Source of the DNA: an uncultured Paracoccaceae bacterium
GTDB taxonomy: Bacteria > Pseudomonadota > Alphaproteobacteria > Rhodobacterales > Rhodobacteraceae
Assembly: GCA_913061275.1 (NCBI GenBank)
Contig: CAJXSR010000022.1
Location: 1-62,575, forward strand
DNA: 62,575 bases
Direction: 5' to 3'
The notes beneath the pieces were generated by a model, which did no database searches, was not told the DNA's origin, and saw only the letters and a list, made by a program, of their open reading frames with translations. A program made the position numbers and the translations under genes. This document shows positions 10,871 through 28,008 of the stretch, piece by piece (the first letter of the stretch is position 1; each line of letters opens with the position of its first letter).

Positions 10871-11764
10871 CTACAATCCCTTGAAGCTTTCACTGTGTTT
10901 TATTGCGGCGCGTATAATATCATAGTCCGCATCATTCCCTGGTAAAAAACCAGATTTAGCTATGCTTTTTAAGGTTTTTGTATCCGTGACATCCATCATC
11001 GCACGATTGATTGCATCATATATACGTATCGGAACATTTGGGCTGGCGATCCAAGGCTTGGTTACATTATCAAAAGTTACTAAGCGTTTTATTTTTGTAT
11101 TTTTTGCCACAAGTTTTTTGAATGTGCTTTCTTTTAAAGCGCCTGCATCATAATCACGGTTACCTACCGCAGCCCCAACACGATCATGGCGACCTAGATA
11201 ACTATACATTTTTAAATCCGCACCTGATATGCCTGCGTTCAAAAGCTGTTCTTGCGCTAAGTACCGTCCAATGGTTGAAAGCGGGTCACCAAATGCAAAA
11301 CTATGCCCTTTTAGGTCCTTTAAAGCGGTTAAAGTACTGTCTGAATGAATTGCGATTATACCCTTGAAAGTTTTCTTTCCTTTTTTAGATTCCATCGCGA
11401 TAATTTTGATGTTCGGGTTTTTGGCTTTAGCAGTGACATACGATGCGGGGCCAAACCTAGAAAAATCCACACGCCCGTCGGTTAAATCTTCTATAGCTTC
11501 CTCATAATCAGAAGCAATTTTAAGTTTTATTTTCACGGGTTCATTTAAAATTATGGCCATTTCTTTACTTAAATAGTTCAAGAATGGCATGAATTTTCGA
11601 ACCGTATCGGTAGGTTTATCCGCCGTATAAGCCCCAAAAATTAGATTGATTTCGCCGTAGGCTGGGGCAGAGAACGCACAAGCCATAGTGAGTACCAAAG
11701 CCCAAAAAGGTTTATGAAAGTAAGTAATGTAGTGGTCTTTTATTAACTTGCTGACATGATACAT
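10871..11764 (-). CDS. PhnD-family periplasmic binding protein
   Basis: 297 residues with an N-terminal signal peptide (cleavage near APAYG, about residue 37) and the phosphate/phosphonate-binding-like fold: L-x-FG at the start of the mature chain, a VDFSRFGPASYV segment, an LKGHSFAFGDPLSTIGRYL segment and a C-terminal helical tail. No ABC permease or ATPase is nearby; instead it sits 5 bp before a hybrid histidine kinase. It therefore more likely presents a ligand to the kinase than feeds a transporter (inference). Ligand unknown. Confidence 0.85.
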   Translation of the reverse strand: MYHVSKLIKDHYITYFHKPFWALVLTMACAFSAPAYGEINLIFGAYTADKPTDTVRKFMPFLNYLSKEMAIILNEPVKIKLKIASDYEEAIEDLTDGRVDFSRFGPASYVTAKAKNPNIKIIAMESKKGKKTFKGIIAIHSDSTLTALKDLKGHSFAFGDPLSTIGRYLAQEQLLNAGISGADLKMYSYLGRHDRVGAAVGNRDYDAGALKESTFKKLVAKNTKIKRLVTFDNVTKPWIASPNVPIRIYDAINRAMMDVTDTKTLKSIAKSGFLPGNDADYDIIRAAIKHSESFKGL

Positions 11765-11906: not shown

Positions 11907-12806
11907 TTAATTGTTTTCTAACCAATCGCGAATAACCCCAACCTGTTCTTCGCTTCGCAACGTTGGTGTATGACCGATATCATCAAACTCAACCAGAGTA
12001 GCCTCTGGCCCGCAAGTAAGCATTTTATACGCGGTTTCTTCGCTAAAAAAGGATGAGTTTTTACCGCGTAGGATTAAAACCGGGCAGGTAATCTTTTCCC
12101 AAGTATCCCACATATCCACATCAAATAGGGACACTTGATCGCGAAACGCATCGCCCACACCCGCATCCATTTTAAGACGGTATTTGCCAGTTTTCGTGCG
12201 GCGTGTGGAATATTGCACCATATGTTTCCAGTCATCGTCTGACATCGGTCCAAATTCGCTGTAAATCTCACGAAAATACAATTCGGCATCTTCTGGTGTA
12301 TCAAAGTCACCAGATCTGCCAATGTAATCGCCAATTCTGGTTAACGCGTCACGGGTAATATTTGGGCCAATATCGTTAATGATTAACCGCCGAATAGGGG
12401 ACTGTGAAACGGAGGCCAGTACCATACCGATAATTCCCCCCATAGAAGACCCCAACCAATCCACTTCGGTTTCATTCAGGCGTGCTAGCAAGGCGTTCAT
12501 ATCCGCATTATATTGTAAATAATCATACCCTTGGAATTCAGCCAGATGGTCGCTTTCACCACGCCCAACAATATCGGGGCAAATAATACGATATTCGTCA
12601 CACATTTCTTCTGCAAAATAATCAAAATCATGGGCATTTCTGGTAACACCGTGAACGCAAACCATTGTATTTTTACGCTCTTTCTTAATCTGGGTACCCC
12701 ATTCCATATAGTGAATTCTGTGGAATCCATGAAACCCCAAGCCTAAAAAATGATGTGTGGAATAGGCTTTTGTATTTTGCTTAGTGGTTATTTTCATTGC
12801 AGACAT
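11907..12806 (-). CDS. Alpha/beta hydrolase of the PHA locus
   Basis: 299 residues with the alpha/beta-hydrolase fold: HGVTRN oxyanion region, nucleophile elbow GSSMGG, acidic residue region around LRGKNSSFF and a C-terminal GHTPTL histidine. Its start is 8 bp after the phaR stop, so it is probably co-transcribed with phaR. It could hydrolyse PHA oligomers, 3-hydroxyacyl esters or thioesters, but this is guilt by association. It has no signal peptide, so it acts in the cytoplasm. Confidence 0.82.
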   Translation of the reverse strand: MSAMKITTKQNTKAYSTHHFLGLGFHGFHRIHYMEWGTQIKKERKNTMVCVHGVTRNAHDFDYFAEEMCDEYRIICPDIVGRGESDHLAEFQGYDYLQYNADMNALLARLNETEVDWLGSSMGGIIGMVLASVSQSPIRRLIINDIGPNITRDALTRIGDYIGRSGDFDTPEDAELYFREIYSEFGPMSDDDWKHMVQYSTRRTKTGKYRLKMDAGVGDAFRDQVSLFDVDMWDTWEKITCPVLILRGKNSSFFSEETAYKMLTCGPEATLVEFDDIGHTPTLRSEEQVGVIRDWLENN

Positions 12807-12814
12807 TCTTATAC

Positions 12815-13411
12815 TTATTTTAAAGATTTAAGGCGGGATTGAAGCGCGTCTATTTGTTTTTGCATATCTTCCATCGCGTCAGATTTAGACGTGTCTTGTG
12901 TATCTACTTCTTCGGTTTCTGAATTATTACCAGAGTTCATTACTCCAAAAACATCCCAGCTTTTTTGAAACATTTCCATGTTTTTACGCGCCATTTCTTG
13001 TGCTTGGGTAAAGAAGGCGCCAGTATTTTGCCCCATCATGCCCTTTAGCATATCTTGCATCTGGTTGCGTTCTGAATTGAAGAAACTGATCGATTGAGTA
13101 AGAAAATCAGGAAACATCTTGCCGTAATTTTCGCCATACATACGGATAAGTTGTTTCTGAAACTCTAACGGAAACAGAAATTCAGCAGGGCGGGTTTCTT
13201 GTTCAAAAATAATCTGGTTCAAAATTTCACGGGTGATGTCAGTACCAGATTTTGCGTCTTCAATGGTAAATTCGGTGCCTTGATTTACCAGCTCAACCAC
13301 ATCTGCCAGCACAATATATTTACTGGTCGCTGTGTTATACAGGCGGCGGTTGGCGTACTTCTTGATAACCACTTTTCCTGCATTTAGTGCAGCTTCCGGT
13401 TTCTGTGTCAT
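12815..13411 (-). CDS. phaR: PHA synthesis repressor PhaR
   Basis: 198 residues. The N-terminal PHB/PHA accumulation regulator domain is unmistakable (VVIKKYANRRLYNTATSKY from about residue 18), followed by the second conserved region with EQETRPAEFLFPLEFQKQLIRMYG split between residues 70 and 105, and a Q/K-rich C-terminal helix. PhaR binds both DNA and nascent PHA granules and is released from promoters when polymer appears. A TGC-N3-GCA palindrome at 13467-13481, 56 bp before its start, suggests autoregulation. The AGGGAT sequence before ATG is the ribosome site. Confidence 0.95.
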   Translation of the reverse strand: MTQKPEAALNAGKVVIKKYANRRLYNTATSKYIVLADVVELVNQGTEFTIEDAKSGTDITREILNQIIFEQETRPAEFLFPLEFQKQLIRMYGENYGKMFPDFLTQSISFFNSERNQMQDMLKGMMGQNTGAFFTQAQEMARKNMEMFQKSWDVFGVMNSGNNSETEEVDTQDTSKSDAMEDMQKQIDALQSRLKSLK

Positions 13412-13466
13412 TTTGATCCCTCAATCAGAACAAATGCCTAGGTTTCAACAGTGTTAGGCAGTTTAT

Positions 13467-13481
13467 TTGTGCGGCGCAACT
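13467..13481. promoter_or_regulatory. Probable PhaR operator 1 (phaR promoter)
   Basis: TTGTGC-GGC-GCAACT, matching the TTGTGC-N3-GCACAA family repeated upstream of phaP and the phaC operon. It lies between the phaP terminator and the phaR start. Confidence 0.7.
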
Positions 13482-13500
13482 AATACCTAAGCATATGCAC

Positions 13501-13533
13501 AAAAAAACGCCGTAAGCAAAGCTTGCGACGTTT
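13501..13533 (-). terminator. Intrinsic terminator after phaP
   Basis: Imperfect 13-bp stem (13505-13517 with 13521-13533, one mismatch and one wobble) with a 3-base loop. On the minus strand it is followed by seven T residues, so it ends phaP transcription. Confidence 0.8.
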
Positions 13534-13558
13534 CTTCAGGGAGGTAATTATAGTTTAA

Positions 13559-13948
13559 TTAAGCAGCAAATGCTTTTGTGTATAGTTTTTTTGCTGTTTC
13601 AGCATTGTCTTTTAATGCTTTAGCAGAAAGTTCAGCCAATTCTTTACCTTGCGCTGAGAATTTTTCAGCAGCAGATGTGAAGTTAGAAGAAGAAACTTTG
13701 TAAAACTCAGCTACATCAGTTGTTTTTGTTAGTGCTTTTGCACCGTCAAAAGTTGCAGCAACATTTGATAGGTAGTTATCATATGCTTTTTTAATCATAA
13801 CTTCGCCACTTTTAATGATTGCAGTGTTGTAATCAATAAGGTTCTGCGCAACTTTTTCTGAGCTCTCAGTTGTTTTTGCAAAAACTTCTTGTGATTTTAC
13901 AAGTGCTTCAGTTGTTGCAGTTGTGATTGCTTCTTTTGTCTTAGCCAT
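13559..13948 (-). CDS. phaP: Phasin (PHA granule surface protein)
   Basis: 129 residues, Ala/Lys-rich and almost wholly helical, with no Cys, Trp or Pro in the core and the family's FNFTS/SNVAAT-like and KALTKTTDVAEF segments. Phasins coat PHA granules and limit their size. AAAGGAAAAG before ATG is the ribosome site. A strong terminator follows. The control region shared with the divergent phaC operon carries several PhaR-type palindromes, which fits PhaR repression of phasin in other bacteria. Confidence 0.92.
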   Translation of the reverse strand: MAKTKEAITTATTEALVKSQEVFAKTTESSEKVAQNLIDYNTAIIKSGEVMIKKAYDNYLSNVAATFDGAKALTKTTDVAEFYKVSSSNFTSAAEKFSAQGKELAELSAKALKDNAETAKKLYTKAFAA

Positions 13949-14054: not shown

Positions 14055-14069
14055 TTGTGCGGCGCAACA
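14055..14069. promoter_or_regulatory. Probable PhaR operator 2
   Basis: TTGTGC-GGC-GCAACA, the first of three sites spaced 21-22 bp (two helical turns) about 107-164 bp upstream of the phaP start. Confidence 0.75.
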
Positions 14070-14075
14070 TAAAAA

Positions 14076-14090
14076 TAGTGCAGTGCGCAA
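14076..14090. promoter_or_regulatory. Probable PhaR operator 3
   Basis: TAGTGC-AGT-GCGCAA, begins 21 bp after operator 2; same TGC-N3-GC(G/A) layout with weaker arms. Confidence 0.65.
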
Positions 14091-14097
14091 TTATTTT

Positions 14098-14112
14098 TCT
14101 TGCGGCGCACAA
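14098..14112. promoter_or_regulatory. Probable PhaR operator 4
   Basis: TCTTGC-GGC-GCACAA, begins 22 bp after operator 3 on the same face of the helix. Confidence 0.7.
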
Positions 14113-14254
14113 AGTTACGCGCGCATGCAGGCGTGCTGGGGTATTTATTGCCGAAATGCATGCTATTATTTTGCCCGAGTGTACCTTTATATAAGGGTAG
14201 TATATAGGGTGTGTAGATTTACAAATATATCAAATGATAGGTTTAGTAATTTTA

Positions 14255-14269
14255 TTGTGCGATGCAATA
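14255..14269. promoter_or_regulatory. Probable PhaR operator 5
   Basis: TTGTGC-GAT-GCAATA, about 180 bp before the plus-strand PHA operon start, in an AT-rich stretch that probably holds its promoter. Confidence 0.7.
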
Positions 14270-14278
14270 TAATATATA

Positions 14279-14293
14279 TTGTGCAATGCACAA
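14279..14293. promoter_or_regulatory. Probable PhaR operator 6 (perfect palindrome)
   Basis: TTGTGC-AAT-GCACAA: both 6-bp arms match perfectly, the best example of the motif in this region. It begins 24 bp after operator 5. Confidence 0.78.
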
Positions 14294-14445: not shown

Positions 14446-16104
14446 ATGACACAGAAGAAAAAAATAAACGCAGCGACCTTGTTGGTTAAGTGTCTTGAAA
14501 ATGAAGGTGTTGAATATATCTTCGGCATCCCAGGCGAAGAAAATATCGCTGTGATGGATGCGCTTCTAGACAGTAAAATCGAATTTGTCACCACGCGCCA
14601 CGAACAAGGTGCAGCCTTTATGGCTGATGTGTATGGCCGCCTTACAGGTCGCGCTGGTGTTTGTATGTCAACGCTTGGCCCAGGGGCTACTAATCTGGTT
14701 ACTGGTTTTGCCGACGCCAATATGGATCGCGCACCGATTGTTGCGATTGCAGGGCAGGGGTCTACTACTCGGCTACACAAAGAAAGCCACCAAATTCTTG
14801 ATCTGGTAAACCTTTTTGCGCCGATCTCTAAGTATTCGGTTCAAGTGCTTATGCCAGAAATTGTTCCAGAAGTTGTGCGCAAGGCCTTTAAATTCGCAGA
14901 AGCGGAAAAGCCGGGCGGCGCATTTATCGATTTCCCTGAAAATGTCGGAGACATGGAAATTGACGAATTACCACCTTTGAAAGTGCAAGCACCACAACCA
15001 CCCGTTGCACCACTTGGGATCGGCAAAAAAGTTATTAAATTGCTGAATGAAGCAAAAAACCCTGTGGTGATCGCAGGTAATGGCGTTATTCGTTTTAACG
15101 CATGTGAAGAGTTGGTTGCGTTTGCAGAAGCAGCCAACGCCCCCGTTGCAACAACATTTATGGCAAAAGGTGCGATGCCTTCGTCCCATCCTTTGTCTAT
15201 TGGTACAGTGGGTTTGAAAGCCCATGATCTGGTTGCATTTGGTATTGAACAGTCTGATCTGGTGATTTGTGTCGGCCTTGATATGGTCGAATACACCCCA
15301 AGTCACTGGAACCCGAATGCCGACATTAAAATCATTAATGTAGATGCCAGCCCAGCAGAGGTTGATGCGCATTTCATCCCTGAAATAGGTATGATCGGTG
15401 ACATCAAAGACAGCTTGAAACGTCTGGCTAAACGCTGCACAGGTCACGCTGACAATAAAGTGGCGAAGCTGCACGATAAAATCACGGCAGAGCTGAATGC
15501 ACATGCCAATGACAACAGCTATCCGCCAAAACCACAAAAGATCATTAGCGATTTGCGCGCGGCTATGAATGACGAAGACATCGTTATATCAGATGTGGGT
15601 GCACATAAAATGTGGATGGCGCGGATGTTCCAGGCAGAACAACCCAACACCTGTATTATCTCAAACGGTTTTGCATCAATGGGCATCGCTTTGCCCGGCA
15701 CAATAGCTGCCAAACTGATCTATCCTGAAAAGAACATTCTGGCTGTTGCGGGTGACAGTGGCTTCATGATGAACAGTCAAGAAATCGAAACCGCAATGCG
15801 CTTGGGTCTGAACATCACCGTTATTATCTTTAACGATAATAAATACGGCCTGATCGAATGGCACCAGTTGCGTGAATATGGCCGTTCCAGCAATATTGAT
15901 GTGGGTAATGCCGATTTCGTAAAATTCGCCGAAAGTTTTGGTGCCAAAGGCTATCGTGTAGAAGATACCGAAAGTTTACAATCTGTTATCGAAACAGCCA
16001 TGAACGACGGCACAGTTTCAATCATTGATTGCCCAGTTGATTATTCTGAAAATATGAAACTGACGGCACGCCTGAAATCACTTTCATCCCCATTTGAAGA
16101 CTAG
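14446..16104 (+). CDS. TPP-dependent acetolactate synthase-like enzyme; candidate 2-oxoglutarate decarboxylase
   Basis: 552 residues from the ATG at 14446, chosen because GGAGGA lies 6 bp upstream; an ATG at 14428 is in frame but has no ribosome site. Three-domain TPP fold: catalytic glutamate E53 in RHEQGA, and the cofactor motif GDS (436-438) to FNDNKYG (from 462). The family is that annotated acetolactate synthase, but there is no regulatory subunit and no acetolactate decarboxylase nearby. The cyanobacterial 2-oxoglutarate decarboxylase belongs to this same family and was first misannotated as acetolactate synthase. With an Fe-ADH, CoA-transferase and PHA synthase in the same operon, making succinate semialdehyde is a plausible role (inference); catabolic acetolactate synthase is the alternative. 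The next gene starts 11 bp on. Confidence 0.85.
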   Translation: MTQKKKINAATLLVKCLENEGVEYIFGIPGEENIAVMDALLDSKIEFVTTRHEQGAAFMADVYGRLTGRAGVCMSTLGPGATNLVTGFADANMDRAPIVAIAGQGSTTRLHKESHQILDLVNLFAPISKYSVQVLMPEIVPEVVRKAFKFAEAEKPGGAFIDFPENVGDMEIDELPPLKVQAPQPPVAPLGIGKKVIKLLNEAKNPVVIAGNGVIRFNACEELVAFAEAANAPVATTFMAKGAMPSSHPLSIGTVGLKAHDLVAFGIEQSDLVICVGLDMVEYTPSHWNPNADIKIINVDASPAEVDAHFIPEIGMIGDIKDSLKRLAKRCTGHADNKVAKLHDKITAELNAHANDNSYPPKPQKIISDLRAAMNDEDIVISDVGAHKMWMARMFQAEQPNTCIISNGFASMGIALPGTIAAKLIYPEKNILAVAGDSGFMMNSQEIETAMRLGLNITVIIFNDNKYGLIEWHQLREYGRSSNIDVGNADFVKFAESFGAKGYRVEDTESLQSVIETAMNDGTVSIIDCPVDYSENMKLTARLKSLSSPFED

Positions 16105-16115
16105 GAAGCATTCAT

Positions 16116-17282
16116 ATGAAACCGTTTAAGTTCCAAACCACCAGCTCTATCCTGTCAGAGGTTGGTGCGACCGCTAAAATCGGCCAGATCATGGCTGATA
16201 TGGGTTGTAAAAAAGTAGCCTTTGTAACCGATGCTATGATCCTAAAACTTGGCCTTGCGCAAGCTTGCCTTGACGGGTTGGAAAAAGCTGGCATTGGGGT
16301 TCATATCATTGACGATGTGGTTGCCGACCCGCCAGAGGCGATGATCCGTGCCGCAGTTGACGAAGCCAAAGCACAAGGCATTGACGGCGTTGTATCCGTT
16401 GGTGGTGGATCGTCTTTGGACACTGCCAAATTGATCTCTATCCTGTCGCAACCCAACGCGCCGCAAGATTTGGACGATATGTACGGTGTTGGTATGGTTA
16501 AAGGCGGTCGTTTACCGCTTGTTTTGGCACCAACCACGGCTGGCACAGGTTCTGAAGTGACCCCAATATCCATCGTTACCACCCGTACATCAGAAAAAAA
16601 GGGCGTGGTTTCCCCTGTTCTTATACCTGATTGGGCCATTTTGGATGCGGAATTAACTGTTGGTCTGCCTGCTCATATCACGGCGGCCACAGGCATTGAT
16701 GCGATGGTTCACGCGATTGAAGCCTACACAACCAAACATGCTAAAAACATCCTGTCGGATACTTTGGCGCGTCAAGCATTGGAATTGTTAGGTGGTGCTA
16801 TCCGCACTGCTTGTAGTAACGGCGAAGACCGTGCTGCACGTTCTGATATGCTTTTGGGTTCAATGCTTGCGGGCATGGCATTTGCCAACGCCCCTGTTGC
16901 TGCGGTTCACGCATTGGCTTATCCGCTGGGTGGGCATTTCCACGTACCACACGGCCTGTCAAACGCGATTGTTTTGCCACATGTTTTAGAGTTCAACATG
17001 GCTGACGAATTGGGTGCATCGCAATACGCCGAAATAGCCCCGATTATCTTTCCCGAACTGGCTGGTAAATCCACGCAAGAGATTTGCGCGGGCATGGTGC
17101 AAGGCTTCAAAAACTTGGGGCCAGAACTGGGTATGAAATCAACATTGCGCGAAGTGGGCGTAAATCACAACGACCTGCCGATGCTGGCAGAAGACGGCAT
17201 GAAACAAACCCGTCTGTTGGTGAACAACCCACGTGAAATGACCTATGACGCCGCTTTGGCGATCTATACCGCTGCATTATAA
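16116..17282 (+). CDS. Iron-containing alcohol dehydrogenase; candidate 4-hydroxybutyrate dehydrogenase
   Basis: 388 residues of the group III metal-dependent ADH family. The NAD(P)-binding loop GGGSSLDTAK lies near residue 97, the family signature APTTAGTGSEVT near 140, and the metal ligands are D195 and H199 (GIDAMVHAIEAY) and the two histidines of the HALAYPLGGHFHVPHG region (about 265-280). Known 4-hydroxybutyrate dehydrogenases are of this family and size; the operon context suggests reduction of succinate semialdehyde. Other short aldehydes are possible. AGGAAG precedes ATG. The phaE start is 12 bp downstream. Confidence 0.88.
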   Translation: MKPFKFQTTSSILSEVGATAKIGQIMADMGCKKVAFVTDAMILKLGLAQACLDGLEKAGIGVHIIDDVVADPPEAMIRAAVDEAKAQGIDGVVSVGGGSSLDTAKLISILSQPNAPQDLDDMYGVGMVKGGRLPLVLAPTTAGTGSEVTPISIVTTRTSEKKGVVSPVLIPDWAILDAELTVGLPAHITAATGIDAMVHAIEAYTTKHAKNILSDTLARQALELLGGAIRTACSNGEDRAARSDMLLGSMLAGMAFANAPVAAVHALAYPLGGHFHVPHGLSNAIVLPHVLEFNMADELGASQYAEIAPIIFPELAGKSTQEICAGMVQGFKNLGPELGMKSTLREVGVNHNDLPMLAEDGMKQTRLLVNNPREMTYDAALAIYTAAL

Positions 17283-17294
17283 GGAATACGCAAA

Positions 17295-18068
17295 ATGGCC
17301 GATGCAAAAGATACAATGAATGATATGTTCAAATTCTGGCAAGATGGTCAGGATGCGTTCTTTACAGCACAACAAGGTTTGGCGGATGGTTTCGCCAAAT
17401 CCATGACACAAGGTTTTACGCCAAAGCCTACGAATATGATGCCGCAAGGTTTTGATGCGTGGCAAGGTTTTGTCAAAGCATGGGCCCCTGCATGGGATCC
17501 TGCCACCGCGATGGCGACAGGCACGGCTGATATGATGGGCAAAAGTCGTGACGCGATGTTTAGCCTATTCGACCCAAGCACTTGGATGGTCCAAAGCCCA
17601 GATCAGTTGAAAACCATATTGCAAGGTATCGCCAACGCACCGCAATTCGCGGACTTAGTGATGCCACAAGGTGATATGGCAACGGCGTGGTCTGAAACCA
17701 CTGACTTTCAAGAAGCAACAGGCACTTTCGCCAAAATCATGCATGAAGCATGGCTGCGCAGTTACGCTGAATATTCCAAAGCGTTTACTTTGGAAGACTT
17801 AAAATCAGGTAAAGTTAAACAAGCTTTGGACGCATGGTTGAAGATCGCCAACAAAGAACTGTTAGACACGCAATCATCACAAGACTTTATGGATGCACAG
17901 AAAAAACTGATGTCTACGGCGACAAGGCTGAAAAAACGGCAAGCTGAAGCCGCGCAAAAATGGGCCGAAGCCTATCAAATGCCAACACGTACTGAAGTGG
18001 ACGATCTAACAAAAACCGTCACTGAACTGCGCCGTGAAATTCGTGATTTAAAACGCAAATTAGGGTGA
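17295..18068 (+). CDS. phaE: Class III PHA synthase subunit PhaE
   Basis: 257 residues, mostly helical, with an F-W-x-D/W-x-P-A-W-D pattern in the N-terminal part, a T-G-T-F-A-K-I-M/Y-A-E-Y-S-K central segment, and a C-terminal coiled coil ending in LRREIRDLKRKLG, all typical of PhaE. PhaE forms the active heteromer with the 40-kDa PhaC. It precedes phaC by 8 bp. Class III synthases are less common in Rhodobacterales than class I, so this may be a second or a transferred PHA system. Confidence 0.88.
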   Translation: MADAKDTMNDMFKFWQDGQDAFFTAQQGLADGFAKSMTQGFTPKPTNMMPQGFDAWQGFVKAWAPAWDPATAMATGTADMMGKSRDAMFSLFDPSTWMVQSPDQLKTILQGIANAPQFADLVMPQGDMATAWSETTDFQEATGTFAKIMHEAWLRSYAEYSKAFTLEDLKSGKVKQALDAWLKIANKELLDTQSSQDFMDAQKKLMSTATRLKKRQAEAAQKWAEAYQMPTRTEVDDLTKTVTELRREIRDLKRKLG

Positions 18069-18076
18069 TTTGAAAG

Positions 18077-19216
18077 ATGGCCAATTCAGACATTATTAAC
18101 GCCGAATTTACCGAAGCTTACGGCGTCGCATGGCAACAAATGATGGATGAAGGGGTTAAGGCTGTCAAATCCAATGATACGCTTTCCAAGATCGATCAAC
18201 GGGATGTGCAAATTGCCGAAACCCCGGCAGATGTGGTGTTTCGCGTCGATAAAGTCACCCTGTCGCGCTATCGCCCACTGACCAAGAAAAAGGCTGATGT
18301 GCCACCGGTTATCATCTGTTACGGGCTGTTTGGCCGCCAAACCATGATTGACCTGCAAGAAGATCGCTCGCTTGTGCGCAACCTTCTTAACGATGGCATT
18401 GATGTTTATGTGGTGGATTGGGGCAACCCAACACGCGCAGACCAGTTTTTGACGCTCGACGATTATATCAACGGGTATTTGCGTGATTGTGTTGATTACC
18501 TTGTTGGTCAAAACGGCGGCAAGCCGATCTCAATGTTCGGTATTTGCGAAGGCGGCACATTCGCGTCCTGCCTTGTGGCCTTAGAACCAGAATTGTTCAG
18601 CGGCCTGTCCCTTGCCATCACCCCGATAGATTTTGTCGGTGACCCTGATAATTTCTGGCCCGGTGAAGGTTTCTTGAATAAATGGGCGCAAAACATGACT
18701 GAGGCCGAGGTTAATGAAATTATCGACACGCACGGCAATATGCCAGGTGCGCTGACAGGTGCGATATTTTCATCCCTGACGCCTATGGCCAGCATGACCA
18801 AGTATAATCTGGGTTTGGCGCGCCTTGAAGGCGATGAAGCCGCCACACTGAATTTTCTGCGCATGGAAAAATGGATTGCCGATCGCCCCGATCATCCGGG
18901 GGCTGCGGCCAAAGAATGGTTTAACCTGCTTTACCGCGAAAACCGCCTGACTGCGGGCACGCTGGAATTGGGCGGGCGCACGGTTAACCTAGGCCACATT
19001 TCATGCCCTGTGTTGAATATTTATGCCGAACAAGATCATATCGTGCCTGTCAGTTGCACCAAGGCACTGGGCAAACATGTGCGCCCTAAGCTTTACCGTG
19101 AAATCGGTTTTTCAGGCGGGCATGTCGGCGTTTTTGTTAGCCGCAAAGCCCAAGGGGTTGTGGCCAAAGGTCTGTCTGACTGGCTGAAAGAGACACAAAA
19201 CACCAAGGTTAAATAA
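18077..19216 (+). CDS. phaC: Class III polyhydroxyalkanoate synthase PhaC
   Basis: 379 residues, matching the short class III PhaC. It polymerises hydroxyacyl-CoA into PHA. The catalytic triad can be placed: C157 in the lipase-like box GICEGG, D320 in AEQDHIVP, and H349 in SGGHVGVF; the spacing agrees with the Allochromatium enzyme. The conserved YVVDWGNP segment near residue 113 is also present. It partners PhaE just upstream. Class III enzymes accept short monomers, including 4-hydroxybutyryl-CoA in some cases. Confidence 0.94.
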   Translation: MANSDIINAEFTEAYGVAWQQMMDEGVKAVKSNDTLSKIDQRDVQIAETPADVVFRVDKVTLSRYRPLTKKKADVPPVIICYGLFGRQTMIDLQEDRSLVRNLLNDGIDVYVVDWGNPTRADQFLTLDDYINGYLRDCVDYLVGQNGGKPISMFGICEGGTFASCLVALEPELFSGLSLAITPIDFVGDPDNFWPGEGFLNKWAQNMTEAEVNEIIDTHGNMPGALTGAIFSSLTPMASMTKYNLGLARLEGDEAATLNFLRMEKWIADRPDHPGAAAKEWFNLLYRENRLTAGTLELGGRTVNLGHISCPVLNIYAEQDHIVPVSCTKALGKHVRPKLYREIGFSGGHVGVFVSRKAQGVVAKGLSDWLKETQNTKVK

Positions 19217-19235
19217 ATATTAGGGGACGTGCACG

Positions 19236-21173
19236 ATGGTTGATAAAATCGTAAATCTGGAAGACGCAATCGCATTAGTTGGCGACAATGATACGGTCTG
19301 TGTCTCTGGTTTTGTTGGCATCGGCACTCCCGAAAGCCTGTTGCGCGGTATTGAAGAACGCTTTGACGCCACCCAATCACCACGCGATCTGTCACTTCTG
19401 TTCGCAGCCGCACCAGGTGACGGCAAAAACGCGGGCCTGAACCGCATTGCAAAAGAAGGTTTGGTCAAACGCGCCATCGGTGGGCATTGGTCATTGGTGC
19501 CAAAACTGGGTGCGATGGCGATGCAGAACAAAATTGCGGCTTATAACCTGCCGCTTGGGTGTATCTCACAGCTATATCGCGATATTGCTGCGGGCAAACC
19601 CGGCATGTTTTCCAAAGTTGGCCTGAATACTTTTGTCGATCCGCGTCAAGATGGCGGTGCAATCAACGAAATATCCACTGAAAAACTGGTAGAGTTGAAA
19701 GATATTGACGGCAAAGAATGGCTGTTTTACCGATCTACCCCGATTGATGTGGCCCTGATCCGCGGTACCACCGCTGACAAATTTGGCAATATCACTATGG
19801 AGCGCGAAGCACTGACACTGGATATGCTTTCTATTGCTATGGCTGCTAAAAACAGTGGCGGCGTGGTGATAGCGCAAGTTGAACGTATTGCAGCCCACGG
19901 CTCATTAGCCCCTAAGGACGTAATTATTCCGGGTAACCTTGTGGATTGCGTTGTAATTGCAGATGCCGATGAGCATCGCCAAACCTATACCACGCAATAC
20001 GATCACGCCTTTAGTGGCCGCCTGCGCGGTGTGGTTGATGAGTTGCCACCGATGCCGTTTGATATGCGCAAAATGATTGCGCGTCGCGCCACGATGGAAT
20101 TGCCGATCAACGGTGTGGTAAACCTTGGTATCGGTATGCCCGAAGGGGTGGGCACTGTGGCCAATGAAGAAGGGTTGCTTGCCCATATCATGCTAACGAC
20201 CGAGGCAGGCGTTTTGGGTGGCGTGCCGCAATCCGGGCTTGATTTCGGGGCTGCAATAAATGCTGAAAGCATCATTCAAACTAACCAGCAATTTGATTTC
20301 TACGACGGGGGCGGTCTTGATTTGGCCTGTTTGGGGATGGCCGAGGTGGATCGACATGGTAATGTTAATGTCAGCCGCTTTAAGGATCGCTTTGCGGGTG
20401 CGGGTGGGTTTATCAATATCTCACAAAACGCCCGTAAGCTGGTTTTTGTAGGTACATTTACCGCTAAAGGATTGCGCGTTAGCGCGGATGATAACAAGCT
20501 GGTTATCGATAATGAGGGCGCGGTTTCTAAGTTTATTGAACAAGTTGAACAGATTACCTTTAACGGTGCTTATGCTGCATCCCAAGGGCAAGAGGTGCTA
20601 TATGTCACCGAACGGTGCGTTTTCCGCCTGACATCTGAAGGATTGGAATTGGCAGAAGTCGCCCCTGGCATTGATATAGAAAAAGATATTCTTGCGAATA
20701 TGGCGTTTAAGCCGATCATCAATGAGCCAAAAATCATGAACCCTGCAATATTTGCAGAGGCAGATATGCGGTTAAAGAAAACGATGCTGGCGATGAATTG
20801 GGATGACCGTTTGCGTTATGTGGAAGAAGAAAATATAGTATTTGCCAACATAAGCGGGCTAAGCATTGAAACTGTGGATGATCTGAATTTCATGCGCGAT
20901 CGGTTGAATGCGTTCTTTAGTGGCCTTGGGCGCAAAGTGGATGTGATCTCTAATTATGACGGGGTAACAATCGCGCCAAGGTTATGTGCAAGATTTGCTG
21001 ATATGTTAACAGAGCTGGAAACCAAATATTACCACACCGCCACGCGGTACTCTACATCTGCATTTTTACGTCAAAAGATGGGCCAAGATTTAAAAACACG
21101 CGCAATTTCACCGCATATATTTGAAACACAAAAAGAAGCCGCCGCTTATGTTCGGGCACATAAAGACGATTAG
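19236..21173 (+). CDS. Fused alpha/beta CoA-transferase with C-terminal extension
   Basis: 645 residues. Residues about 1-520 form a family I CoA-transferase with both halves fused, as in propionate/acetate CoA-transferase (Pct/YdiF). The likely catalytic glutamate is E323 in TTEAGVLGG, at almost the position of E324 in the Clostridium propionicum enzyme; GSGIG-like and GGFINIS motifs follow. Residues about 530-645 are an additional domain (NISGLSIETVDDL, then RKVDVISNYDGV). Fused enzymes of this type activate hydroxy acids using acetyl-CoA, so it may form 4-hydroxybutyryl- or 3-hydroxyacyl-CoA for PhaEC (inference). It is the last gene of the PHA operon; an AT-rich hairpin follows. Confidence 0.88.
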   Translation: MVDKIVNLEDAIALVGDNDTVCVSGFVGIGTPESLLRGIEERFDATQSPRDLSLLFAAAPGDGKNAGLNRIAKEGLVKRAIGGHWSLVPKLGAMAMQNKIAAYNLPLGCISQLYRDIAAGKPGMFSKVGLNTFVDPRQDGGAINEISTEKLVELKDIDGKEWLFYRSTPIDVALIRGTTADKFGNITMEREALTLDMLSIAMAAKNSGGVVIAQVERIAAHGSLAPKDVIIPGNLVDCVVIADADEHRQTYTTQYDHAFSGRLRGVVDELPPMPFDMRKMIARRATMELPINGVVNLGIGMPEGVGTVANEEGLLAHIMLTTEAGVLGGVPQSGLDFGAAINAESIIQTNQQFDFYDGGGLDLACLGMAEVDRHGNVNVSRFKDRFAGAGGFINISQNARKLVFVGTFTAKGLRVSADDNKLVIDNEGAVSKFIEQVEQITFNGAYAASQGQEVLYVTERCVFRLTSEGLELAEVAPGIDIEKDILANMAFKPIINEPKIMNPAIFAEADMRLKKTMLAMNWDDRLRYVEEENIVFANISGLSIETVDDLNFMRDRLNAFFSGLGRKVDVISNYDGVTIAPRLCARFADMLTELETKYYHTATRYSTSAFLRQKMGQDLKTRAISPHIFETQKEAAAYVRAHKDD

Positions 21174-21330: not shown

Positions 21331-21406
21331 AGTGACATCAATAAAACATAATGTATTTATGGTGCGAGTCGGTGTTATGCCGATTTACTACACATGGGAG
21401 AAATAC

Positions 21407-22378
21407 ATGAAAAACTTTAGCTTTTTAGCTGGTGCACTGACAGCAGCTACAATGATGACTGGTACTGCTTTTGCAGCAGATCAGCAATTCATCACAATCG
21501 GTACAGGCGGCGTAACAGGCGTTTATTACCCAACAGGTGGCGCGATTTGCCGTCTGGTAAACAAAGGTCGCAAAGAACACGGCGTTCGTTGTTCTGTAGA
21601 GTCTACAGGCGGTTCTGTTTACAACATCAACACAATCAAAGCCGGCGAACTGGAATTTGGTGTGGCCCAATCTGATTGGCAACATCACGCATACCACGGT
21701 ACATCTAAATTTAAAGATGCTGGTGCTTTCACAGACTTACGCGCAGTATTCTCTGTACACCCAGAGCCGTTCACAGTTGTTGCACGTGCTGACTCAGGCG
21801 TAAAAACATTTGCTGATCTAAAAGGCAAACGCGTTAACATTGGTAACCCTGGTTCAGGTGCGCGCGGCACAACCGAAGTATTGGTTGAAGCTCTTGGCTG
21901 GACTATGGACGATTTCGCTTTGGCGTCAGAACTAAAAGCATCTGAGCAATCAGCTGCACTTTGCGACAACCAAATCGACGTAATGGTTTACACAGTTGGT
22001 CACCCTTCTGGTTCAATCCAAGAAGCCACAACCGCATGTGATTCCGTTCTTGTGAACGTAACTGGCCCAGTTGTTGATAAACTGATCGAAGACAATGCGT
22101 TCTATCGTACAGCAACAATTCCTGGTGGCATGTACCGTGGTTCAGATGCAGATGTGCAAACATTTGGTGTTGGTGCAACGTTTGTATCTTCAACAGCTGT
22201 ATCTGCTGATGTTGTTTATGTTTTGGTGAAGTCAATCTTTGAAAACTTCGCAGCTTTCAAAAAACTACACCCAGCATTCAAAAACTTGAAGCCTGAAGAA
22301 ATGGCTACAGCTGGTCTGTCTGCACCTCTACATGACGGTGCTGCTAAGTATTACAAAGAACAAGGTTGGATTGAATAA
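21407..22378 (+). CDS. TAXI-family TRAP transporter solute-binding protein
   Basis: 323 residues from the ATG at 21407, preceded by GGGAG; the upstream in-frame start adds an unlikely leader before the signal peptide. Signal peptide residues 1-22 (cut at AFA-AD). The mature protein begins with the TAXI pattern [20 protein letters not shown], then [14 protein letters not shown] and [13 protein letters not shown]. It captures a substrate for the fused permease encoded downstream; some family members bind glutamate or other organic acids, but the ligand here is unknown. Codon use is biased to common codons, which suits an abundant periplasmic protein. Confidence 0.93.
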
Positions 22379-22393
22379 TCTAAACCAACTGAA

Positions 22394-22419
22394 CAAGAAG
22401 GGGCTTTGGCCCCTTCTTG
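22394..22419 (+). terminator. Intercistronic stem-loop between TRAP genes
   Basis: CAAGAAGGGGC pairs with GCCCCTTCTTG in an 11-bp stem with a 4-base loop and no T-run. Such hairpins protect the binding-protein mRNA or partly end transcription, giving more binding protein than permease. Confidence 0.75.
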
Positions 22420-22506
22420 GCACTTTAAGATATTAAGATGCAGAAAAAAGCATCGGATAAATAATTTTATCCAACTTATAAATAGATTGTTTTGGGAGAG
22501 AACAAC

Positions 22507-25116
22507 ATGGCTACAGAAGATAAAAATGCACCACTTTCGGACGAGCAACTACAAGATATGGTTGCTTCTGCGGATGCAGGTGCGCGTAATCCAGTCGGAC
22601 CGGTAGGAACTTTCCTAGCCGTTCTGGCAATTGTCTGGGCATTGTTCCAAATCCTTTTAGCTTCGCCTATCTCTAATCAGGTATTGCCGGGCTCTATCAT
22701 TAACAGTTCACGTCAAGTCCATTTGGGATTTTCAGTGTTCTTGGCCTATATGGCCTATCCTGCCTTTAAAAACAGTCCGCGTGACCATGTTCCAATCGTT
22801 GATTGGGCATTGGCACTTCTGGGTACGTATTGTGCGCTTTATGGGTATATTTACTATACGCAACTTGTAGACAGGCCTGGATTGCCCACGCAGCTGGATG
22901 TTTTTGCTGCTGCGGCTGGTTTGGCACTATTGTTTGAGGCTGCACGTCGTGCATTAGGCCCAGCAATGGCGATTGTCGCGGTTGTTTTCCTTGGTTATGT
23001 TTTCTTTGGTTCCTCAGATGTGGTGCCTGATGTTATCCGCTGGAAAGGTGCATCGCTTAACAAAGCCATGAGCCATATGTGGCTAACTTCTGAAGGTGTG
23101 TTCGGTATTGCGCTGGGTGTATCTACCAAGTTCGTATTCCTATTCGTTCTGTTTGGCGCATTGCTGGATAAAGCGGGTGCAGGTAACTACTTTATCAAAA
23201 TGGCCTTTGCAGCCCTTGGTCACTTACGTGGTGGCCCTGCAAAAGCGGCTGTTGTGGGTTCTGCTGCTACTGGTTTGATTTCAGGTTCTTCCATTGCCAA
23301 CGTGGTAACAACGGGTACATTTACTATTCCGTTGATGAAACGTGTGGGCTTTAGTTCTGAAAAAGCGGGTGCTGTTGAAGTAGCATCCTCTGTGAACGGT
23401 CAAATCATGCCACCTGTTATGGGTGCTGCTGCGTTCTTGATGGTGGAATATGTGGGCATTTCATATGTGGAAGTGATTACGCACGCATTCTTGCCTGCCA
23501 CGATTTCTTATATCGCTTTGGTCTACATTGTTCATTTGGAAGCGGTGAAATTGAATATGCCGTTGCTACAAAAAGCCAGCGGCAAATCAGCCTCTGTTTT
23601 AGCAACAGCTCTTTCAATGTTCTTGTTCTTCTTTGGCTTTGCAGCGCTTTGCTACGGTACAAAATATCCAGTTGGCTGGATCGTTTCCGCGTTTCCTGCG
23701 GGATCAGGTTTAATACTGACTGTTTTGTTGGGTGCGGTTTATGTGGGTCTTTTGTATCTTGCATCACAAGTGCCAGATCTTGAACCTGACGATCCCAATG
23801 CGGAAGAAATTGTATTGCCGGAAGTATCCGAGATTTACAAATCTGGTCTGTACTATCTATTGCCGATTATCGTGTTGGTTTATTTCTTGATGATTGAGCA
23901 AAAATCACCTGGCCTGTCCGCATTTTGGGCAACCATGCTGTTGATCGTTATCCTACTGACACAACGTCCGCTGAAAGCAATTTTCCGTGGTCAAAGTGAA
24001 ATGGCTGAACGCGCCAAGGATGGCCTAGTCGATTTGATGCAAGGCTTAATCGACGGTTCGCGTAACATGATCGGTATTGGCCTTGCGACAGCAACCGCTG
24101 GTGTGATCGTGGGTACTGTGACACTGACGGGTATCGGGCAAGTTATGGCTGATCTGGTAGAGTTCTTATCGGGTGGTAACTTGATCTTGATGCTAATCTT
24201 TGTAGGCATCTTGTCTTTGATCTTAGGCATGGGTCTACCAACAACTGCGAACTATATTGTGGTATCATCCCTGATGGCTGGTGTTGTGGTTGAGCTGGGT
24301 GCAAACTCTGGCTTGATCGTGCCATTGATCGCGGTACACCTATTTGTGTTCTACTTCGGGATCATGGCGGATGTGACGCCACCTGTGGGGCTGGCCAGTT
24401 TTGCCGCTGCCGCTGTATCAGGTGGTGATGCGATTAAAACAGGCTTTACCGCATTCTTCTATAGCTTGCGAACTGTTGCCCTACCGTTCGTGTTTATCTT
24501 CAACACAGATATGCTGTTGATCGGGGTTAATTGGTGGCAAGGTATCATTGTGTTCATTATCGCGTCTATTGCAATCCTTGTGTTCACTGCAAGTACTATG
24601 GGCTTTTTCATTACCAAGTCTAAAATATGGGAAAGTGTTGCACTTGGTGCTGTTGCATTCGCCTTGTTCTTGCCAAACATCTTGTTGAACCAGATCACAC
24701 CAGAATTTGTTGTGAAACCTGGAACAGAAGTATACCAAGTAGCCGAAGCTGCCCCTGCCGACAGCACATTACGTGTGCGCCTAACAGGTGAAGATCTGGA
24801 TGGAAACATGGTCGACAGTAACTTCGTTCTGCCATTGGGTGAAAAATCTGGTGATGGTGCCGCGCGCTTAAAAGCGGGTTCTGGTATCGAATTCAGAGAA
24901 GAAGATGGCAAAATCTTAGTTGATAACATCGACTTTGGCGGCTCTGCTGAACAGTTGGGCATTGACTTTGATTGGGAACTGGCTGGGCTTGATATTGAAG
25001 CCGACCGTATGCCCAAAGAAGTACTTTATGTGCCTGCATTCGCACTGTTGATACTGGTCTACATGCTACAAGCGCGACGTAGACGTAATGAAGAAGGAAA
25101 TGAGGTGACAGCATGA
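22507..25116 (+). CDS. TAXI-type TRAP transporter fused permease (4TM-12TM)
   Basis: 869 residues from ATG 22507, which has GGGAGAG 6 bp upstream; a TTG at 22492 lies inside that site. About 16 hydrophobic segments: the small (DctQ-like) and large (DctM-like) units are fused, as is normal for TAXI systems. Diagnostic patterns include SGSSIANVVTTGTFTIPLMKR split around residue 270, NGQIMPPVMGAAAFLM and GMGLPTTANYIV. A hydrophilic domain of about 100 residues (rough positions 740-845) precedes a last membrane helix and an Arg-rich tail. Overlaps the following gene by 4 nt. Confidence 0.93.
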   Translation: MATEDKNAPLSDEQLQDMVASADAGARNPVGPVGTFLAVLAIVWALFQILLASPISNQVLPGSIINSSRQVHLGFSVFLAYMAYPAFKNSPRDHVPIVDWALALLGTYCALYGYIYYTQLVDRPGLPTQLDVFAAAAGLALLFEAARRALGPAMAIVAVVFLGYVFFGSSDVVPDVIRWKGASLNKAMSHMWLTSEGVFGIALGVSTKFVFLFVLFGALLDKAGAGNYFIKMAFAALGHLRGGPAKAAVVGSAATGLISGSSIANVVTTGTFTIPLMKRVGFSSEKAGAVEVASSVNGQIMPPVMGAAAFLMVEYVGISYVEVITHAFLPATISYIALVYIVHLEAVKLNMPLLQKASGKSASVLATALSMFLFFFGFAALCYGTKYPVGWIVSAFPAGSGLILTVLLGAVYVGLLYLASQVPDLEPDDPNAEEIVLPEVSEIYKSGLYYLLPIIVLVYFLMIEQKSPGLSAFWATMLLIVILLTQRPLKAIFRGQSEMAERAKDGLVDLMQGLIDGSRNMIGIGLATATAGVIVGTVTLTGIGQVMADLVEFLSGGNLILMLIFVGILSLILGMGLPTTANYIVVSSLMAGVVVELGANSGLIVPLIAVHLFVFYFGIMADVTPPVGLASFAAAAVSGGDAIKTGFTAFFYSLRTVALPFVFIFNTDMLLIGVNWWQGIIVFIIASIAILVFTASTMGFFITKSKIWESVALGAVAFALFLPNILLNQITPEFVVKPGTEVYQVAEAAPADSTLRVRLTGEDLDGNMVDSNFVLPLGEKSGDGAARLKAGSGIEFREEDGKILVDNIDFGGSAEQLGIDFDWELAGLDIEADRMPKEVLYVPAFALLILVYMLQARRRRNEEGNEVTA

Positions 25117-25538
25117 CACAGAAAGTTTTATGCGCGGTTGATTTAGGTCAATCTGACAAAAGCGAAAATGTTTTAACGGAGGCCAGTAAATTGACTGACC
25201 TGCATGACGCACACCTAAGCGTTATAACCGTTGTGCCTGATTTTGGCATGAGTATTGTTGGGTCATTTTTTGACAAAGGTACTTTGGAAAGTGCCTTGCA
25301 AAAAGCCAATGATGATCTGCATACATTCGTTAAACAAACTTTACCAAAGGCAACTGATATACAACATATTATTGCTCTTGGAACTGTCTATGAAGAAGTA
25401 TTGAAATCCGCACAAACAATCGGTGCCGATCTTATTGTAATTGGGGCTAGTAAACCTGATTTGGCAGATAAGATGATGGGGCCGAATGCAGCACGGGTTG
25501 CACGCCACTCTGATGCATCGGTTTATATCGTGCGTTAA
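25113..25538 (+). CDS. Universal stress protein (UspA family)
   Basis: 141 residues with the UspA fold: an N-terminal beta strand VLCAVDLGQSDKSE, and the C-terminal ATP-binding pattern G-x2-G-x9-G-(S/N) only partly kept (IGASKPDLADKMMGPNAARVARHSDASVYIVR). It overlaps the TRAP permease gene (ATGA), a common arrangement for TAXI/TRAP operons, where the Usp may adjust the transporter in response to ATP. It closes the operon before a strong terminator. Confidence 0.9.
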   Translation: MTQKVLCAVDLGQSDKSENVLTEASKLTDLHDAHLSVITVVPDFGMSIVGSFFDKGTLESALQKANDDLHTFVKQTLPKATDIQHIIALGTVYEEVLKSAQTIGADLIVIGASKPDLADKMMGPNAARVARHSDASVYIVR

Positions 25539-25574
25539 AACGAACGTTTAGTGCTACTCTCTGTGGCTAAACAT

Positions 25575-25620
25575 AAACGGCCAGCTTTACCATCACCCGG
25601 TAAAGCTGGCCGTTTTTATT
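25575..25620 (+). terminator. Strong intrinsic terminator of the TRAP-usp operon
   Basis: 17-bp perfect stem (25575-25591 with 25599-25615; core ACGGCCAGCTTTACC) with a 7-base loop, running into TTTTTATTTAT. Confidence 0.93.
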
Positions 25621-25654
25621 TATGAACGCTTGTTAGTGCTGGTACGCCTTATCG

Positions 25655-25690
25655 CCCCGTCGCCATTCATTTGGCGGCGGGGTTTTCGTA
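25655..25690 (+). terminator. Second hairpin downstream of the TRAP-usp terminator
   Basis: CCCCGTCGCC pairs with GGCGGCGGGG (one G-T pair) around an 8-base loop, followed by TTTTCGTATT. It is oriented like the first terminator, giving a tandem pair. The rest of 25539-25922 holds no gene that I can support. Confidence 0.7.
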
Positions 25691-25922
25691 TTCTCAGGGT
25701 ATGTGGTTGATAAGGAAGGCAGGCCTGCCGTTGTAGCTATATGGCCGAACAGAGTTGTTAGCTCTGCACCTGTTCTTAACTGTTAAGTTTCGGTGGTTTT
25801 CGCATTTGGCGTTGTTATGCGCCCTTTGAGAACCCGTTAACTACTGTTTGTCGACGCATAAAGATATACACCTGCAAAGGTTGCCGTTTTGTAAATTGTG
25901 CGTGCGGTAGGTTTTGCCCGCT

Positions 25923-27251: not shown

Positions 27252-28008
27252 GTTGCAAGTCCTTTATCAAAGCGGCGGCAAGGGCCACGGTCTGCGCATT
27301 ATCTTTAGCGGGGCTGCCATCTGGCAGTAAAGTGTTGTTTTCAAAGCCGATGCGAAGATTACCGCCTAGCTGTAAGGCCGCACTTGCACAGGCCAGTTCA
27401 TGCTGCCCAAAGGCGCAAATTGCCCAATCAAGTGATAGGTGTTTAGAGGCTTCAAGAAAAGCTGGTAAATGTTCTGGCCGGGCTAAAACCTGGGGTTGAT
27501 ATCGGCCCAAAACATAAATTACCGAGTTCATATGACGCGGCACCCAACCCTTACCAAACCAATCTGCAAGTAAGGCAACATCGTTTGGAGTATATATAAT
27601 ATGTTGCACAGTTGTGTTTGTTTCGGCGCAAAAGCTGTAAACCTGTTTTGCCAAAGACGTATTGGTCGCCATTTCACGAATGGAAATACTGGCAGCAGCA
27701 GGGGTAACATTTTTCAGGCAGTGAAATTGCGTTTCCACATCAAATATACCCGCACTTTCAGTTGTGATTTGTATTGGCATTTCGGGAATTGTTTCAGTAA
27801 CGGCACAAATAGCATCTTTATAATGGTCAGGATCAAGACTGTGATCGCCGTCTTTAGTGCGGATATGCAGGTGCAACATGTCAGCGCCTGCCAGAAAACA
27901 ATCCCGTGCGGATAGGGCAATTTCCTGAATTGTTATCGGCAAATCAGGGTGATCCAACTTTTGTTTGCGCGCGCCATTGGGGGCGACCATCAGGGTTGGT
28001 GTTAACAT
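27244..28008 (-). CDS. Beta-keto acid cleavage enzyme (BKACE, DUF849 family)
   Basis: 254 residues from the ATG at 28008; the longer reading upstream encodes an Ile/Tyr-rich stretch that overlaps the divergent promoter and is unlikely. The family condenses a beta-keto acid with acetyl-CoA and cleaves it to acetoacetate and a new acyl-CoA, using Zn. The metal motif H-x-H is in MLHLHIR (about residues 45-51); NGAR near the start and a C-terminal GFENN segment are typical. Slightly shorter than the usual 270-310 residues. It is the first gene of a pair with the aminotransferase. Confidence 0.87.
   Translation of the reverse strand: MLTPTLMVAPNGARKQKLDHPDLPITIQEIALSARDCFLAGADMLHLHIRTKDGDHSLDPDHYKDAICAVTETIPEMPIQITTESAGIFDVETQFHCLKNVTPAAASISIREMATNTSLAKQVYSFCAETNTTVQHIIYTPNDVALLADWFGKGWVPRHMNSVIYVLGRYQPQVLARPEHLPAFLEASKHLSLDWAICAFGQHELACASAALQLGGNLRIGFENNTLLPDGSPAKDNAQTVALAAALIKDLQHE

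Follow-up and report, generated by a model that had tools for sequence, protein, structure and literature searches.

The stretch of DNA analysed here, the 62,575-nucleotide contig CAJXSR010000022.1 of an uncultured Paracoccaceae bacterium (GenBank assembly GCA_913061275.1; hereafter the window), carries at 14446-21173 a plus-strand operon of five genes whose products very probably form a native pathway dedicated to making poly(4-hydroxybutyrate) (P4HB) from 2-oxoglutarate, all substrates and the polymer being deduced from the sequences. The open reading frame calls give, in order, a thiamine diphosphate (ThDP)-dependent decarboxylase, an iron-containing alcohol dehydrogenase (Fe-ADH), PhaE, a class III-like polyhydroxyalkanoate (PHA) synthase PhaC and a fused CoA-transferase (Table 1), separated by 11, 12, 8 and 19 bp, and Pfam assigns them TPP_enzyme_N/M/C, Fe-ADH, PHA_synth_III_E, alpha/beta-hydrolase (PhaC) and CoA_trans domains. 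The initial annotation had described these five contiguous, tightly spaced genes correctly in position and gaps (8-19 bp), but had left unmentioned the divergent genes at 11907-13948, which are part of the same unit. The grouping is not due to chance, because the order recurs in two genomes of the same genus, two of another family and a Rhizobiaceae metagenome-assembled genome (MAG).

In the route that the initial annotation had put forward in outline, and that is now supported by the decarboxylase analyses, the kinship of the Fe-ADH, the gene co-location in Bosea and betaproteobacterium GR16-43 and a genome search in which the class I PHA synthase model found only the operon PhaC and no PhaB passed its cut-off, the ThDP enzyme would decarboxylate 2-oxoglutarate to succinate semialdehyde (SSA), the Fe-ADH would reduce SSA to 4-hydroxybutyrate (4HB) with NAD(P)H, the CoA-transferase would move CoA from acetyl-CoA onto 4HB with release of acetate, and PhaEC would polymerize the 4HB-CoA, while the phasin would coat the granules under the control of PhaR. 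Such a route would be redox-neutral from citrate or isocitrate, since the one reduced nucleotide gained at isocitrate dehydrogenase is spent again by the Fe-ADH, and carbon of the tricarboxylic acid (TCA) cycle could go into storage under limitation of respiration or nitrogen.

The best NCBIfam model for the ThDP protein is PRK08322 (NF006187), "acetolactate synthase large subunit" (766 bits), a model that gives 867 and 875 bits to two cyanobacterial proteins, 820 to the Bosea enzyme and 798 to that of locus L064; because the cyanobacterial kin score so high on it, this model appears to describe largely a decarboxylase family. In BLAST comparisons, the window protein shares 52-55% identity with 24 cyanobacterial copies, which were taken as orthologues of the 2-oxoglutarate decarboxylases A2770 (Synechococcus), sll1981 (Synechocystis) and MaKGD (Microcystis) and compared in place of those three sequences themselves, 35-38% with two AlsS proteins and 24-31% with seven paralogues from its own genome. 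In a tree of 103 rows (106 collected, three dropped; quick search with SH-aLRT support only), the window and the five other operon copies form a six-row clade (support 100) nested in a mostly proteobacterial clade of 59 rows (97), and all 94 decarboxylase-type rows, cyanobacterial and Bosea-type included, stand apart from AlsS and the seven paralogues (86, with long paralogue branches). Identity, tree and model scores thus bear out the earlier claim that the enzyme belongs to the family of the cyanobacterial 2-oxoglutarate decarboxylase, and most pocket residues agree with it.

The pocket comparison used the 17 residues named for MaKGD in the text of PMC10418658, with cyanobacterial row L124, in which all 17 stand at the same numbers, as reference. 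In the alignment, 14 of the 17 are kept in the window protein and in each of the other seven operon-type rows, 11-12 in three Bosea-type rows, nine in both AlsS and 4-10 in the own-genome paralogues. Lys386, a 2-oxoglutarate contact in those authors' docking model (PMC10418658), corresponds to K394 of the window protein and is present in every cyanobacterial (24/24), operon-type (8/8), same-family (4/4), Bosea-type (5/5) and other (50/50) row; an equivalent was found in 0/2 AlsS and 0/7 paralogues. As described there, MaKGD gave an aldehyde from 2-oxoglutarate and none from five other 2-oxo acids including pyruvate, and ScKGD is called equally strict (PMC10418658).

An aldehyde dehydrogenase of the SSA dehydrogenase (SSADH) type lies within about 0.55 kb upstream of the ThDP gene in 19 of the 24 cyanobacterial loci (the one that was scanned has NADP-SSADH as its best model), which is the known decarboxylase/SSADH pairing. 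Window-like decarboxylases followed by an aldehyde dehydrogenase also occur in 13 of 80 loci from named genomes (L053, L055-L060, L062, L066, L070, L072, L075 and L100; Planctomycetota, Gammaproteobacteria, a Gemmatimonadetes MAG and others) and are possibly 2-oxoglutarate/SSA bypasses; neither of two aldehyde dehydrogenases scanned next to window-like decarboxylases (L019, L055) reached the cut-off of an SSADH model. In the former, a Leisingera plasmid (L019:9003-17143), the decarboxylase (68%) has two neighbours, an aldehyde dehydrogenase and a large FAD/Fe-S protein, the latter possibly, by resemblance, a D-2-hydroxyglutarate dehydrogenase. The genome to which the window belongs also encodes a 2-oxoglutarate dehydrogenase E1, so the TCA cycle could be closed without the operon decarboxylase.

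The second enzyme is 54% identical to GhbD of Sinorhizobium meliloti HM006 and 55% to BlcB of Agrobacterium fabrum C58, the latter presumably a 4HB dehydrogenase. In the tree of Fe-ADHs all three fall into one subfamily of 17 rows, the window protein in a seven-row clade (99/99), and the enzyme is therefore, as the initial annotation had proposed, kin to 4HB dehydrogenases. Purified GhbD reduces SSA with NADH or NADPH according to a 2025 preprint (PMC12636752), which also refers to characterized AttL and AttK activities. Taken together, we predict that the window Fe-ADH is an SSA reductase/4HB dehydrogenase. NCBIfam was uninformative as an arbiter of its function, as GhbD, BlcB and the window protein give much the same list of models, all below cut-off. 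In Ochrobactrum and Methylobacterium aquaticum, relatives of up to 58% identity stand in other gene contexts.

PhaE exceeds the cut-off of PHA_synth_III_E (PF09712; 55.5 vs. 25.7 bits), and PhaC, in which a PhaC_N match falls just under cut-off beside the alpha/beta-hydrolase domain, carries the GxCxGG box with Cys157 as well as Asp320 and His349, with the PhaE gene adjacent. The CoA-transferase is YdiF-like, 57% identical to that of HM006, with Glu323, which we take to be catalytic, at the matching position. A search of the own genome (99.99% complete) with the class I PHA synthase model returned the operon PhaC as its only match, and a PhaB model matched 21 short-chain dehydrogenases (SDRs) there with none over cut-off. 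Since that PhaC is the only match and no PhaB passes, PHA synthesis in this organism appears to rest on the operon, as far as searched (phaA was not searched for).

The eight genes of the whole unit, that is, the operon and the divergent phasin, PhaR and hydrolase genes, occur in the same order and with nothing between them in six genomes including the window: two of the same genus (L023, L024), two of another family (L037, L038) and the Rhizobiaceae MAG (L050), with identities that range from 74-85% for the ThDP enzyme, Fe-ADH and CoA-transferase within the genus to about 35% for PhaE of L038. The unit has a sparse, scattered distribution. A search of 385 alphaproteobacterial genomes gave PhaC relatives at E<=1e-60 in six, the own included, and three of the six have the whole unit (own, G311, G415); G318, G342 and G330 were rejected as carriers, because among the queried genes only PhaE or PhaR adjoins PhaC there (the G318 contig is 9.8 kb long). 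The ThDP gene at E<=1e-150 is present in 9 of 196 genomes of the order, namely the own and two same-genus genomes with the operon and six without it; among the same-genus genomes listed, three of six have the operon. The 80 named-genome loci contain the full unit in L050, a variant in L064 and parts in L051 and L052, the last cut by a contig end. In Labrenzia alba (L051:9001-12839), the ThDP and Fe-ADH genes are followed only by PhaE and hydrolase fragments, apparently a decayed unit, and the Rhizobium plasmids L042 and L046 bear two partial, partly broken sets about 10 kb apart (ThDP-ADH-PhaE-PhaC, plus idh-ThDP-ADH-CoA-transferase pieces or a second ThDP gene). Six genomes of the window's family (L025-L030) have a related decarboxylase (45-49%) without the operon, with an internal TAG in two of the matches.

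Related clusters place further genes of the proposed route side by side. On a plasmid of Bosea vaviloviae, acnA, idh and the genes for the ThDP enzyme, Fe-ADH, PhaE, PhaC, CoA-transferase, phasin, hydrolase, Acs, inorganic diphosphatase (ppa), adenylate kinase (adk) and a citrate:proton symporter are consecutive on one strand, with AcnA over its model cut-off. We infer that this cluster leads from citrate through 2-oxoglutarate to P4HB, and that Acs, the diphosphatase and adenylate kinase would recycle the acetate freed by the transferase. In betaproteobacterium GR16-43, a window-type ThDP gene is accompanied by an unrelated zinc alcohol dehydrogenase, PhaE, PhaC, hydrolase, a binding protein (TctC-like by eye), a CoA-transferase and an idh whose product is 75% identical to that of Bosea; Skermanella and Paraburkholderia have ThDP, zinc alcohol dehydrogenase and CoA-transferase genes together, and three rhizobial clusters (L042, L044, L130) have Idh-like pieces in their vicinity. 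The Bosea ThDP enzyme is only 38% identical to that of the window, the Fe-ADH and CoA-transferase 57-58%. Two branches have thus supplied the decarboxylase slot and two families the dehydrogenase slot, an argument that selection acts on the reactions. An isocitrate dehydrogenase homologue of Paraburkholderia aromaticivorans was set aside, with no decarboxylase or PHA gene annotated nearby.

Several observations weigh against the proposed route. The decarboxylase tree does not show the cyanobacterial and window clades to be sisters within the group of 94 rows, whose subgroups join in an open fork; the Fe-ADH tree has a single outgroup row (the other full Fe-ADH of the own genome, 31%) and a weak inner group order (89/79). 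The best NCBIfam models stay below cut-off for PhaC (TIGR01836, 308.7 of 365.3 bits), PhaE (TIGR01834, 51.2 of 154.95) and the CoA-transferase (FadX, 433.9 of 750), so these proteins appear to be of the right families but divergent. Isocitrate dehydrogenase PRK08997 is the best match of the Bosea and GR16-43 idh, again below cut-off (443 and 437 of 510 bits), and the window of 62.6 kb contains no match to the Bosea idh, aconitase or acs. Between lineages the ThDP and alcohol dehydrogenase partners are swapped, with Bosea-type ThDP enzymes 35-40% identical to that of the window and also found alone (R. johnstonii pRL12) or beside pdhA (Microvirga). Further, the window pocket differs from that of MaKGD at three of the 17 positions (Q254->K264, G436->S444, K471->H479). 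The docking model has two of these positions in contact with the substrate, so that specificity could have shifted. Lys471, a modelled salt bridge to 2-oxoglutarate (PMC10418658), is Lys in 24/24 cyanobacterial rows and His in all eight operon-type rows and 21 of the 50 others, and position 254 is Lys in 8/8 operon-type rows; a positive charge may have been traded between the two sites, and a positive residue at 471 is not specific to the family, two own-genome paralogues having His and one Lys. Finally, the specificity test of MaKGD detects aldehydes and for this reason does not exclude carboligation to acetolactate, and 4HB or SSA could come instead from GABA, as PMC12636752 proposes.

It is unlikely that the downstream pathway serves mainly for a 3-hydroxybutyrate (3HB) or mixed P(3HB-co-4HB) polymer, with 3HB-CoA supplied from elsewhere and the operon adding some 4HB. 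Class III synthases accept 3HB-CoA, fused CoA-transferases are broad, and the own genome offers the 21 SDR matches; however, all 21 stay below the PhaB cut-off, with a FabG-like protein encoded next to a FabD-like gene as the best of them (names by eye), and the six units consist of the eight genes with nothing between them and no phaA among them (no search for phaA was made in the flanks or elsewhere in the genome). A decarboxylase acting on another 2-oxo acid, for example oxaloacetate, with malonate semialdehyde, 3-hydroxypropionate and poly(3-hydroxypropionate) as products, is still less probable. Such a shift would fit the two changed contacts at 254 and 471, and the MaKGD assays listed in the text of PMC10418658 do not include oxaloacetate, whereas the strictness of MaKGD, which gave aldehyde from 2-oxoglutarate alone among six acids, and of ScKGD, the retained Lys386, the reduction of SSA by the kindred GhbD, and the aconitase and isocitrate dehydrogenase of Bosea all point to 2-oxoglutarate.

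That the ThDP enzyme is a true acetolactate synthase, with an acetoin/butanediol or branched-chain unit standing by chance beside PHA genes, is highly improbable. The database name NF006187 speaks for it, as does Bacillus subtilis AlsS, which just reaches that model (509.8 bits, cut-off 509; 947 on its own model), and the AlsS model PRK08617 is passed by the window protein (530 of 510) and by the two cyanobacterial proteins (514 and 526). In tree and identity the window protein is separate from AlsS, the AlsS motif PGAK reads PGEE and Gln487 of B. subtilis AlsS (Gln in both AlsS) is His479, the cyanobacterial kin reach 867-875 bits on NF006187, and no acetolactate-using gene is found among the eight; an AlsS identity was therefore rejected as unlikely.

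Part of the 2-oxoglutarate-to-P4HB route has precedents. The pha-1/pha-2 region of S. meliloti HM006 has the same order, Fe-ADH (GhbD)-PhaE-PhaC-CoA-transferase (GhbT), as the window, with identities of 54, 35 (over 109 aa), 45 and 57%, respectively; we took our locus L130 as the locus of the preprint because strain, replicon name and gene content agree. It differs in that the ThDP gene directly upstream is in two frames, hence broken, whereas that of the window is open and first, and in that acs follows and attKLM is collocated, whereas the window has PhaR and phasin attached and no match to the S. meliloti-type neighbours acs, blcA or attM in its 62.6 kb. For Sinorhizobium, a symbiotic poly-gamma-hydroxybutyrate cycle from SSA was proposed, with GABA as the likely SSA source; two annotated pseudogenes upstream are mentioned without discussion (PMC12636752), and we infer that one of them is the broken ThDP gene. 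In the main text of that preprint, a word-start search returned no oxoglutarate, ketoglutarate, decarboxylase or acetolactate, and its Results and Discussion contain neither a 2-oxoglutarate entry step nor, as far as seen, a direct measurement of polymer composition.

The cyanobacterial system shares the decarboxylase but couples it to SSADH as a TCA bypass, whereas the window pairs it with an alcohol dehydrogenase and a PHA synthase. Agrobacterium blcABC (attKLM), presumably catabolic for butyrolactone/4HB, shares the Fe-ADH but has SSADH and a lactonase, with no PHA gene annotated within the 15 kb seen. Similar in reactions is an engineered Synechococcus 7002 route to P(3HB-co-4HB), with 2-oxoglutarate decarboxylase, 4HB dehydrogenase, 4HB CoA-transferase and PhaEC, which is man-made with genes from three sources (PMC7147479), whereas the window has one natural operon. 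For Cupriavidus metallidurans, PMC2864759 only suggests that parts of 2-oxoglutarate dehydrogenase might act as decarboxylase. In the open-access literature searched (bioRxiv excluded), a native P4HB pathway is described only in PMC12636752, and no native 2-oxoglutarate-to-P4HB route was found. The novelty that the initial annotation saw in a native route from the TCA cycle to P4HB must accordingly be divided: the half from alcohol dehydrogenase to polymer is prior work (PMC12636752), and the open, first-in-operon 2-oxoglutarate decarboxylase is what the window adds, a dedicated first step that appears to be new.

Table 1. Features of the eight-gene unit and its intergenic region in the window.
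Feature	Position	Strand	Evidence
Predicted ThDP-dependent 2-oxoglutarate decarboxylase, KGD-like (database name acetolactate synthase large subunit)	14446..16104	+	PRK08322 766 bits; 52-55% to cyanobacterial copies; 14/17 MaKGD pocket residues
Iron-containing alcohol dehydrogenase, predicted SSA reductase/4HB dehydrogenase, GhbD/BlcB-like	16116..17282	+	54% GhbD, 55% BlcB
PhaE-like subunit, class III PHA synthase	17295..18068	+	PF09712 55.5 bits, over cut-off; below NCBIfam cut-off
Class III-like PHA synthase PhaC	18077..19216	+	Cys157, Asp320, His349; below NCBIfam cut-off
Fused family I CoA-transferase, YdiF/GhbT-like, C-terminal extension, Glu323; predicted acetyl-CoA:4HB CoA-transferase	19236..21173	+	CoA_trans Pfam; 57% to HM006 CoA-transferase
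Phasin, granule protein	13559..13948	-	Phasin_2 40.3 bits vs. cut-off 24.9; under both NCBIfam phasin cut-offs
PhaR, PHA synthesis repressor	12815..13411	-	TIGR01848 121.7 bits vs. cut-off 109.45
Alpha/beta-hydrolase, conserved in unit	11907..12806	-	Pfam; homologue after phasin in Bosea (42%) and in 6/6 units
TTGTGC-N3-GCACAA-like inverted repeat cluster	14055..14293		Between phasin and operon; perfect copy 14279-14293

The decarboxylase gene has two in-frame ATG starts, 14428 and 14446, of which the latter is preferred because a GGAGG site precedes it. The minus-strand arm is separated from the operon by a 0.5-kb intergenic region, and its hydrolase is possibly a polymer or oligomer hydrolase. 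At least two copies of TTGTGC-N3-GCA are present in the corresponding phasin-ThDP regions of all six conserved units, and the perfect 15-mer palindrome in four of the six. Allowing up to two mismatches, the 62.6-kb window has 11 matches, five of them within the repeat cluster, where 5.8 are expected over the whole window and 11 were reached in 2 of 100 shuffles; the repeats are probably PhaR operators. Downstream, the genes at 21332-29584 encode a TAXI-type binding protein, a tripartite ATP-independent periplasmic (TRAP) permease (Pfam), an aminotransferase and a BKACE-like enzyme (NCBIfam); two further products, judged by eye, are a universal stress protein and a glutamate dehydrogenase-like protein. 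The genes were rejected as members of the unit, since the TAXI-TRAP, aminotransferase, BKACE and glutamate dehydrogenase-like genes had no match in the seven related loci searched, which cover about 3-8 kb beyond the operon in five true units. A PhnD-like binding-protein gene (10871-11764) adjoins the hydrolase, with matches beyond the unit in L023 (67%) and at the edge of L024 (56% over 55 aa).

We think it likely that these clusters represent a natural, self-contained module from 2-oxoglutarate (or citrate) to P4HB that several proteobacterial lineages possess and that was put together more than once, its decarboxylase and dehydrogenase being interchangeable parts. The module would be redox-neutral from isocitrate and able to store TCA carbon without 2-oxoglutarate dehydrogenase, and the rhizobial clusters would be its descendants or siblings with an often decayed decarboxylase. 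P4HB is the PHA with approval of the U.S. Food and Drug Administration (FDA) for medical use. Its high, stable synthesis from structurally unrelated carbon was called "only achievable in recombinant strains" in a 2020 review (PMC7147479). If the proposed route is true, a native operon would put this view in question and supply co-evolved enzymes, while its decarboxylase would give the P4HB cycle proposed for rhizobia a source of SSA besides GABA, and the database name "acetolactate synthase" would be corrected for a family that covers many decarboxylases.

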